This document shows positions 34,001 to 35,307 of a DNA stretch of 64,000 bases, in pieces (the stretch's first letter is position 1; each line of letters starts with the position of its first letter). Origin of the DNA: Ceratobasidium sp. AG-K (lineage: Eukaryota > Basidiomycota > Agaricomycetes > Cantharellales > Ceratobasidiaceae); the NCBI GenBank assembly GCA_037039685.1, contig JAWNGF010000007.1, positions 1,922,001-1,986,000 of the forward strand, written 5' to 3'. A program made the position numbers and the translations under genes. A model generated the notes under the pieces. It saw only the letters and a list, made by a program, of their open reading frames with translations, searched no databases and was not told where the DNA came from.

Positions 34001-34978
34001 TGGCTACTCGGAAAGAACATTCAAACAAAAAGACCTTCAAAGAAACTGGACAACAAAAAGCACGGGCCATTTGTCGTGAAGCGACAGATAGGATCACACG
34101 CTTATGAGCTCAATCTGCCGGCAACAATGAGGGTGCACCCTGTTTTCCACGTCGATTTGCTCAGCCCTTACAAGGGAGACACCGAATTCAGCCGCAACCA
34201 ACCCCGACCACCGCCGGTCATAACGGAGGAAGGGGAAGAAGAATATGAAGTAGAGAAGATCTTGGACTGGAAGGAAACAAAGGACGGCCTTTTTTACAGG
34301 GTCAGATGGAAGGGTTATGGAAGTGAAGAAGACACAGAGCAAAGGGCAGAAGATTTTGGTCACCTTTCAAAGATCATCAAGGACCTTCTACGCCGACACC
34401 CCGAAGCTCCCACGCCATCTAACTACACTCCAGGGAAGATAAAAGGCAGAAGGGGTGAAACAGACAGCCTCACTTGCAGAACTTGCTACTACTCCAAGAA
34501 ACACCACCAACTCTACGCTCTAAACCTCTTCTGCCCTCTACGATGCCTGCCGTCACCCGCTCCACCATCGCCAACAACCTCACCCGCGTCCTCGAAGGAC
34601 CTGCCTTTGCCACGGCAAGGATCCTCGACTCCGGAGCCGCCCTCTATGTCTTCAAGAGGTCACAACAAAGCTCTGGAAGGATGCACTTCAGGGCCTCGGA
34701 TGATATCCTCCACTCAGACCTGGGGGAATTCCAGTGGGTTGGGAAAAAATGGCCGACGCGCATGCAGCTCCTACGAAAGGACATATTCGTCTGTCGAGGG
34801 TGCGCCGCTTTCCAGGTCTCGGAGGTCGTCCTCCTCTCCACCCACATGCTCGGAGTGGTCGAATGGGGGCAAGAAGGAGCGTACTCAAGCGAGTGGGTAC
34901 CAGGTTATGACGGAAGACAGCCAACGCTCCGACCTAGGTGGAACGATGCCTGGGACACCAACTATGAAAAGGACCTGA
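31064..34978 (+). CDS. pol: Pol polyprotein of element E (protease, RT, RNase H, integrase, chromodomain)
   Basis: The frame is uninterrupted for 1,304 codons and opens upstream through the end of gag. Domains by residue: aspartic protease with DSGA near 40; RT with YIDD near 346; RNase H with TDAS near 493, KELMAI near 535 and IYTHH where YTDH is usual; integrase with HHCC near 705-755 and D near 796, D near 837, E near 873 (D-35-E spacing); a GPY/F region near 1015; chromodomain near 1055-1105. The chromodomain is expected to tether integration to modified chromatin. Beyond residue 1160 the frame runs over ORF3 and is Ser/Pro-rich, so the true C-terminus is uncertain. The Asp-to-His change in RNase H is the only visible active-site defect. 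Confidence 0.92.
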   Translation: MCGETKKPATEAMYFRATNESTIVYANVAGITEPIPTLIDSGASKNFLDISWARSNNIPLIELPTPRRVIGIQGKELSHQIRFKAKLELEVEGRTFKQVFFAMPTGETKLILGLEWLEESNPVIDWKTKHISWRTEAIQARTASIDDLPEEFKEFADVFSKEKFKRIPDHRPYDCAIDFKEGAELPKPARPIPLSPAESIALREYLDEEIAAGKIRPSKSPIASPCFFVKKPIDPKNPGAVRQLRLVQDLRGVNAITKDDRFPMPLMEDLLDKIKDTKIFSKIDLRMGFNNIRIREGDEWKTAFRTKEGLFEYVVMPFGLKNAPAIFQRYMNHIFHDLIDVCVIVYIDDILVFSKNRSQHTVDVRKVLKILLEESLFAKLPKCEFFVTKLTYTGLGISDSGISMEEEKVKAIKEWKEPRTVKQVQAFLGFANFYRRFVPNFSRLAKPLTTLTRKENKWEWGNDQQEAFEALKTEISKEPTLRHPNPDKPFFLETDASGVAMGAILSQRQDDGYLHPIAFLSKSFNKAQLNYDVHDKELMAIIESLTHWRLYLEGTRDPITIYTHHRNLQFWKEARTFNRRHARWHQLLASYNFDIIYRPGILSSKPDLLSRRSDHEDIPTPEQVMISVERFKGFMGQVDTDIIETIKEAQETDEGLAQIKEICTSRETLPKTLQHSAKDYDFKEGLLWFKGRIYVPEDKESRLAIMRMHHDSKIAGHQGQARTLELISRRYFWPGMKQSINRYVESCETCQRTKGSKSIVLIKPLEIPKGPWEDIVFDFVVKLPKSRGSDSILVVVDRFSRMAHFIPCKESHTASDLANLFITNVWKLHGFPKSMISDRGTTFNSKLMKAIYEKIGTSPGFSTAYHPQTDGITERINQWMEGWLRSFVNYRQDDWADLLPIAEFSYNLQKHRVTGNSPFEIVYGREPLWNISAEESAVPEANNITGKWRKIHDKAIASMETQRLPEEEPKSKYQEGDLVWLLGKNIQTKRPSKKLDNKKHGPFVVKRQIGSHAYELNLPATMRVHPVFHVDLLSPYKGDTEFSRNQPRPPPVITEEGEEEYEVEKILDWKETKDGLFYRVRWKGYGSEEDTEQRAEDFGHLSKIIKDLLRRHPEAPTPSNYTPGKIKGRRGETDSLTCRTCYYSKKHHQLYALNLFCPLRCLPSPAPPSPTTSPASSKDLPLPRQGSSTPEPPSMSSRGHNKALEGCTSGPRMISSTQTWGNSSGLGKNGRRACSSYERTYSSVEGAPLSRSRRSSSSPPTCSEWSNGGKKERTQASGYQVMTEDSQRSDLGGTMPGTPTMKRT

Positions 34979-35307
34979 GCGACTGGAGGATGGAGAGGGG
35001 CAGATACCAGAAGGAAAAAATCGAATGGGAACCCTACTGGTGGAGGAAGGAGGAGACTGACGTGTTGGCATGGAAGGAGGCAGAGCCCGATGTGCGACAA
35101 TGGGATGAGGAGTTTGTGGAAGCCCAGGAGAGGGTTTTGGACTGGTCCAAGGCGGACTGGACGAGGGAAGAAACTTGGGAGGAATGGGAGAAGTTCTCGG
35201 ACGAACCGGGAAATACCGTTTTCAATCCCATCGACCTGACCTTGGAGGAGGAGGAGGGGTTGGAGGAGTTTATGCTGAAGAAGGAAAAGGACTGTGCGGT
35301 GCAGTAG
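34543..35307 (+). CDS. ORF3 of element E, novel accessory protein (254 aa)
   Basis: The ATG at 34543 lies inside the end of pol, in the -1 frame relative to pol. The ORF ends 42 nt before the 3' LTR. Features by residue: MPAVTRST N-terminus; LGEFQWVG near 66; CRGC near 84-87 followed by a VVLLS strand, shared with family-1 ORF3; a remarkably Trp/Glu-rich stretch (about 130-220); PIDLT at 229-233 followed by a Glu-rich tail, like a SUMO-interaction motif. No signal peptide or membrane segment is seen, so it does not look like an envelope protein. F carries a decayed homologue (37051-37813). No known family is recognised; I infer a conserved element-encoded accessory factor. Confidence 0.75.
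   Translation: MPAVTRSTIANNLTRVLEGPAFATARILDSGAALYVFKRSQQSSGRMHFRASDDILHSDLGEFQWVGKKWPTRMQLLRKDIFVCRGCAAFQVSEVVLLSTHMLGVVEWGQEGAYSSEWVPGYDGRQPTLRPRWNDAWDTNYEKDLSDWRMERGRYQKEKIEWEPYWWRKEETDVLAWKEAEPDVRQWDEEFVEAQERVLDWSKADWTREETWEEWEKFSDEPGNTVFNPIDLTLEEEEGLEEFMLKKEKDCAVQ

Follow-up and report, generated by a model that had tools for sequence, protein, structure and literature searches.

An additional open reading frame (ORF) of unknown function is marked in some fungal Gypsy elements in the legend to Figure 3 of Novikova et al. (2010; PMC2864245), and extra ORFs in fungal elements have been known since then. Here we describe such an ORF, designated ORF3, in element E, a chromovirus of the Ty3/gypsy group lying in a 64 000-nt stretch of the Ceratobasidium sp. 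AG-K genome (assembly GCA_037039685.1, contig JAWNGF010000007.1, positions 1 922 001 to 1 986 000, forward strand; hereafter the window, in whose coordinates positions are given). The elements of Novikova et al. are, like E, fungal Gypsy elements with an extra ORF; for these ORFs the available part of PMC2864245 gives no sequence, selection, motif or overlap, and they may or may not include the gene of E. In long terminal repeat (LTR) retrotransposons of bdelloid rotifers, ORF3s likewise lie downstream of pol and are family-specific and variable, several of them being non-env (PMC5408684); unlike the gene reported here, they are of esterase, exonuclease, transmembrane or env types, and no motif for binding the small ubiquitin-like modifier (SUMO) is described in the available text. 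Foamy virus resembles one of the options proposed below for ORF3 expression, in that an internal promoter in an upstream gene drives accessory genes near the 3' LTR, but it is a vertebrate retrovirus with env, and its promoter lies in env and is proven by experiment (PMC3185757). The SUMO-interacting motif of PIAS1, VIDLT, has the core (I/V)DLT in common with the proteins of E and of a second element of the window, D, and nothing beyond this short motif; peptides with this core preferentially bind SUMO2/3 (PMC4907222). A first-pass annotation of the window had called the third ORF undescribed, which is not true of additional fungal Gypsy ORFs as such, already drawn in PMC2864245; no description of this particular gene was found in literature on third or additional ORFs in fungal Gypsy elements, SUMO motifs in LTR retrotransposons, SUMO and Ty1, or internal promoters (subscription papers mostly lay outside this scope), and the available parts of PMC3248453, PMC3411680 and PMC2774666 contain nothing on it. 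The SUMO-interacting-motif-like core of E and D and the TATA-like box described below are new here.

Element E is a complete chromovirus, young by its LTRs, with a target site duplication, gag, the domain order protease, reverse transcriptase, RNase H and integrase, and a chromodomain after the integrase (Table 1). Its ORF3 starts inside pol, extends 329 nt beyond the pol end and stops 42 nt short of the 3' LTR. In these chromoviruses ORF3 is a true third gene, being neither env nor a by-product of the Pol frame. Selection was assessed as the ratio of nonsynonymous to synonymous substitution (dN/dS), calculated pairwise by the Nei-Gojobori method on 28 E copies, comprising 8 loci and 20 more, most of which were taken from low in the list to increase divergence; intervals, obtained by bootstrapping codons, serve as guides only because the copies are related. 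ORF3 of E is under strong purifying selection, as strong as that on the chromodomain part of pol: dN/dS was 0.062 over the whole gene, 0.047 (0.031-0.066) in the pol overlap and 0.079 (0.051-0.112) beyond pol (34981-35303), compared with 0.087 (0.058-0.126) for the chromodomain part of pol and 0.31 for the linker between chromodomain and ORF3. With dS over ORF3 at about 0.6, the low ratio does not stem from want of change. A third gene of fungal LTR elements whose function is little known can thus be selected as strongly as the chromodomain part of pol.

The host genome (53.6 Mb, 17 contigs) was searched for further copies. The E ORF3 protein gave at least 149 matches, the scored ones being the best-scoring part of 782 candidates. 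All 149 spanned residues 1-254 and 130 lacked an internal stop, a fraction biased upward because the scored set is the best-scoring one; a chance origin of the frame is excluded by these numbers, which amount to well over a hundred full-length ORF3 copies in one genome. By direct translation ORF3 was uninterrupted in 26 of the 28 E copies used for dN/dS, with a stop in the other two, and its ATG was retained in every one. At least 153 matches were found for the H-type ORF3 (130 of 254 candidates scored) and at least 150 for the D-type third ORF (150 of 199 candidates scored, the query being the longer frame 15421-16044). The first-pass annotation had placed a third ORF downstream of the chromodomain of E and proposed for it a retained accessory function. 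The ORF is confirmed and the proposed function supported: of the two outcomes named as refuting it, neither occurred, the part of the gene outside the pol overlap being under purifying selection and many other copies, of E, H and D type, carrying a third ORF.

Selection was also evident in the other families. For the H-type ORF3 dN/dS ranged from 0.120 (6 young copies) to 0.174 (16 copies), and for the D third ORF from 0.187 to 0.286 (sets of 4, 6 and 18 copies). The observed/expected ratio of CpG was 0.63-0.85 in E (26 copies) and 0.09-0.52 in D (18 copies); the 16 H copies fell into two halves, 8 at 0.79-0.87 and 8 at 0.21-0.52. The CpG-depleted copies (8/16 H, 18/18 D) had an excess of TG/CA, as expected from deamination of methylated CpG, and decay after insertion would raise dN/dS in them.

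Relatives of the gene were found at the same place in elements F, H and B. A tblastn comparison of H with E ORF3 gave an E-value of about 0.001 over residues 21-99, while B ORF3 alone did not reach the limit against E in a sequence search. Comparison of the E and H profiles aligned 45 columns around LG-x3-WV and C-x-G-C (P 1.2e-4, hhalign probability 54.9%), and the blocks LG-x3-WV (V allowed for L) and C-x-G-C-x4-V-x2-(V/I)(V/I)L were both present in 26/26 intact E copies and 16/16 long open H copies, in agreement with the block noted at first pass as common to E, F, H and B. That annotation had also counted the ORF of D with the others, a grouping that holds for E, F, H and B; D is not demonstrably the same gene. 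The D profile aligned with that of E only at IDLT plus acidic residues (P 0.017) and with that of H only at a F-x-x-I-D stretch (P 0.41); kinship of D to E and H is not shown by alignments confined to a short C-terminal motif, and the third ORF of D, which occupies the same place, may be non-homologous to ORF3 of E. The ORFs of H and B had been given as about 394 codons and broken; B is interrupted, but open H-type copies reach 379-394 codons. One H-type copy has at residues ~320-379 an extra charged C-terminal region, coiled-coil-like by eye, that is absent from E and D.

Table 1. Coordinates of third ORFs and associated features in the window (64 000 nt); E, F, H, B and D denote elements
Feature	Position	Strand	Evidence or remarks
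5' LTR of E	28575..29030	+	2 mismatches/456 to 3' LTR; TG...CA ends; 5-bp CATTC duplication on both sides
gag of E	29061..31061	+	Pfam Retrotrans_gag; CCHC zinc-knuckle match slightly below cut-off
pol of E	31064..34978	+	Pfam protease, RT, RNase H, integrase, SH3_Tf2-1 and chromodomain in expected order, then C-terminal tail
TATA-like box of E, GATAAAAG	34438..34445	+	Candidate internal promoter; 105 nt 5' of ORF3 ATG; 25/26 intact E copies
ORF3 of E	34543..35307	+	ATG 34543, stop 35305-35307; 254 codons, 254 aa; whole-gene dN/dS 0.062 (28 copies)
Pol C-terminal tail of E	34544..34978	+	+1 frame over ORF3; open, sequence unconstrained; dN/dS 3.15
Conserved block LGEFQWV ... CRGC	34720..34803	+	Common to E, F, H, B; profile comparison P 1.2e-4
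PIDLT, SUMO-interacting-motif-like	35227..35241	+	Followed by acidic residues; strict 24/26, relaxed 26/26 E copies
3' LTR of E	35350..35805	+	456 nt; pairs with 5' LTR
ORF3 of F	37054..37813	-	Three broken pieces; tblastn 84, 58 and 59% identity
TATA-like site of F, TATAAAGG	37911..37918	-	105 nt 5' of F ORF3 ATG
ORF3 of B	6802..7758	+	Relative of H, 67% identity; interrupted by stops
TATA-like site of D, TATAAAAG	15445..15452	+	102 nt 5' of D ATG
Third ORF of D	15547..16047	+	166 aa (166 codons, 15547-16044); at least 150 genomic matches; relatives P0004, P0005
SUMO-interacting-motif-like sites of D	15871..15924	+	VIDLT (15871-15885), IIDMT (15910-15924); motif counts, shuffles, relatives
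ORF3 of H	21158..22069	-	304-aa open part; at least 153 genomic matches

The product of ORF3 is probably a soluble accessory protein, acidic (net charge of E -17, as K+R-D-E) and rich in tryptophan (16 in E), with the conserved LG-x3-WV/C-x-G-C region. No clear membrane segment was seen by hydropathy in E, two H and two D copies (no dedicated signal-peptide or membrane predictor was used): the highest 19-residue Kyte-Doolittle mean reached 1.56 in E, at a single stretch beginning at residue 81, against 0.61-0.73 for the H copies and 1.03-1.13 for the D copies, consistent with the earlier view that an envelope protein is unlikely. Below the Pfam threshold, DNA_meth_N and ZMYND11_CC appeared in 6/16 H members (best E-values 0.04 and 0.047), FAM198 in 1/18 D (0.0069) and FBD in 1/23 E-type members (0.03). 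The identity of a SUMO-targeted ubiquitin ligase was considered and dropped, no RING match having passed the cut-off in E, H or D members. The C-terminus of E ORF3 reads FNPIDLT, followed by L and acidic residues, and so contains the strict pattern [PILVM][ILVM]DLT, which we take to be of the SUMO-interacting type. Among 18 D copies the strict pattern was found in 14 and a relaxed one in 17, the corresponding E counts being those of Table 1; gag and pol of the window's E contained no such motif. Of 100 000 shuffled sequences each, 269 (E) and 329 (D) had one strict motif, and 19 of 100 000 D shuffles had two relaxed ones. Both sites of D persist in its two relatives from outside the genome: P0004 (50% identity to D) has VIDLT and INLT, and in P0005 (44%) both sites read IDLT, with a preceding Y that puts the first outside the strict pattern.

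The reading that we favour, tentatively and with somewhat less than even confidence, is that ORF3 is an accessory protein made from a subgenomic RNA and contacting SUMOylated host proteins. The C-terminal (I/V)DLT-type motif of the E, F and D proteins would dock on SUMOylated factors of the host, for example chromatin or silencing factors, and docking might help the element's integration complex or relieve silencing; we put this role forward as a testable proposal rather than a result. Translation of ORF3 would start at its own AUG. The 70 nt 5' of the start contain a total of 1 ATG in the 26 E copies, none in the 16 H copies and 1 in the 18 D copies. Because the Pol frame continues for 435 nt beyond the AUG in E, and in most open H copies extends over some 350 codons or longer, ribosomes finishing pol could not reinitiate in the ordinary way, and ORF3 is likely to be translated from a separate subgenomic mRNA. 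Such an RNA might start within pol, at the TATA-like box some 100 nt before the AUG, or be spliced to a neighbouring acceptor; an internal start is slightly preferred because D and F also have a TATA-like box. In the D family TATAAAAG lies at -99 to -120 in 15/18 copies, with TATTAAAG in 2 more, and sites with at most one mismatch to TATAAAAG number 1 in D (3500 nt), 2 in E (5482 nt) and 4 in F (4300 nt).

Several observations weigh against this reading, as regards both the SUMO contact and the internal promoter. Pfam searches with the five window proteins and all E, H and D alignment members gave no ORF3 match passing the cut-off, RING included; the PDB, searched by sequence (E) and by profile, gave nothing significant (best chain for D, E-value 0.62); and AlphaFold models were unusable, with a mean predicted local distance difference test score of 33.6 for E (7 sequences) and 37.5 for D (3 sequences). 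Short motifs are common and often non-functional, and the SUMO-interacting core was present in none of 16 H copies. The B and H elements of the window have no site with at most one mismatch to TATAAAAG, and the closest sequence among H copies is TACAAAAG, present in 6/16, so that neither the core nor the box is universal. The box also encodes Pol residues I-K, which could explain its retention, an acceptor-like site just upstream of it is retained about as well in E and better in H, and the comparison of boxes was made after the pattern had been seen.

It is quite possible, if slightly less probable than the SUMO-contacting role, that ORF3 is an accessory protein unconnected with SUMO, for example structural, RNA-binding or concerned with particle assembly, and that the DLT motif is incidental. 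The H-type gene is conserved (dN/dS 0.12-0.17) without the motif, and the common function may accordingly not involve SUMO; the persistence of both D sites at 44-50% identity, one of them as INLT in P0004, speaks for the motif.

As to expression, ORF3 might instead be translated, in the manner of retroviral env, from a spliced RNA in which an acceptor close to the pol end is joined to gag or the 5' leader, the TATA-like box being merely Pol coding sequence. We regard this as possible, if somewhat doubtful, and as a close competitor of the internal promoter. ORF3s of LTR retrotransposons are typically made from spliced messages according to the available part of the rotifer-element study (PMC5408684), in 23/26 intact E copies the TATA-like site is closely preceded by CTAAC followed by CAG, and a loose pattern picked out a CAG at the end of a run of pyrimidines in 14/16 H copies. 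However, across 34380-34560 a single AG (34448) and no GT is invariant in the 28 E copies, F has neither the CTAAC nor the CAG, and the 30-nt leader between LTR and gag contains no GT (donors elsewhere were not searched). TTGCAG near 34474, tried as an acceptor, was not retained in most E copies.

A Pol-ORF3 fusion made by -1 frameshifting is improbable. The phase would suit it, since ORF3 of E, B and D is in the -1 register relative to pol and the Pol frame over it is open, but in 23/28 E copies there is no open ORF3 frame before position 34468 or 34471, leaving about 25 usable codons before the ATG, and no 7-mer is invariant across the 28 E copies in this pre-ATG stretch (34468-34542, to which the scan was confined); retention of the ATG in all 28 likewise argues for an independent start.

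In E, B and D the Pol frame, at +1 relative to ORF3, is open across much of the third ORF (34544-34978, 6803-7903 and 15548-15913, respectively). All 28 E copies lack an internal Pol stop over 144 ORF3 codons and share the terminal stop at 34976-34978. The frame is open over at least 351 ORF3 codons, or as far as the open piece extends, in 14/16 H copies, and over at least 121 codons in 9/18 D copies, the rest having a stop after 18 to 113 codons. Synonymous recoding of ORF3 yielded an equally open Pol frame with P 0.06-0.09 for 3 E copies, 0.002-0.014 for 6 H copies and 0.01-0.10 for 6 D copies, all of them hand-picked, and among 305 E codons for which one of the synonymous alternatives would stop Pol, 0 use it where 55 were expected, with the proviso that the copies are not independent. 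Within the overlap the Pol frame has a dN/dS of 3.15 (28 E copies). The Pol tail thus seems to be kept open though, in E, its sequence is free to change. This suggests a possible guard, in that an early Pol stop would create a long 3' untranslated region and might expose the genomic RNA to decay. That a constrained Pol frame leaves ORF3 open by chance, as an overprinting artefact, can be virtually dismissed despite the open Pol frame in 28/28 E copies, the constraint being on the ORF3 frame (0.047 against 3.15) and persisting after the pol end (0.079).

Taken in full, the favoured reading would describe a fungal LTR retrotransposon with a dedicated SUMO-docking gene and its own internal promoter in pol, with Pol kept open perhaps against sensing of premature stops, and with the same architecture in the E/F and D lineages. 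We consider this complete picture unlikely; the architecture, with proteins sharing little beyond the SUMO motif, would be convergent or very old. The chromodomain of chromoviruses is thought to aim integration at marked chromatin, and a second, separately encoded protein docking on SUMO would, if real, offer a direct handle on the encounter of chromoviruses with the silencing and repair systems of the host.

At least one chromovirus family of the same genome lacks both ORF3 and the long Pol tail; three copies of it (pol of about 1161 codons) end the pol frame directly past the chromodomain, at about 434-442 of the stretch examined; many of the 150 listed SH3_Tf2-1 matches (of 1335 candidates) sit in pol frames of about 1150-1165 codons. 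No ORF3-like frame follows pol on that strand within the stretch in the three copies, two of which have another element starting within about 0.8-1.2 kb, and no TATA-like site was found within 1.1 kb past the pol stop. In an unrooted six-taxon tree of 266 integrase columns D groups with this family with a support of 100, and D may have gained its gene independently, or the ORF3-less family may have lost one. One ORF3-less element is adjoined downstream by an E/F-type element with ORF3 in opposite orientation, and an E-like gag lies downstream of a second copy, reflecting nested or neighbouring insertions.

Protein searches outside the genome returned four relatives, P0002 and P0003 for E, and P0004 and P0005 for D; none was found in viral contigs or, with E as the only query, in plasmids. 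P0004 is a metagenome protein and P0005 is UniProt A0A183CS78. The record of the latter names the potato cyst nematode Globodera pallida as source, and the protein may stem from fungal DNA in that assembly or from a horizontal transfer. Towards the right of the window, positions 49940-52300 probably hold a host gene, in which sequence resembling C2H2 zinc fingers was recognized by eye.
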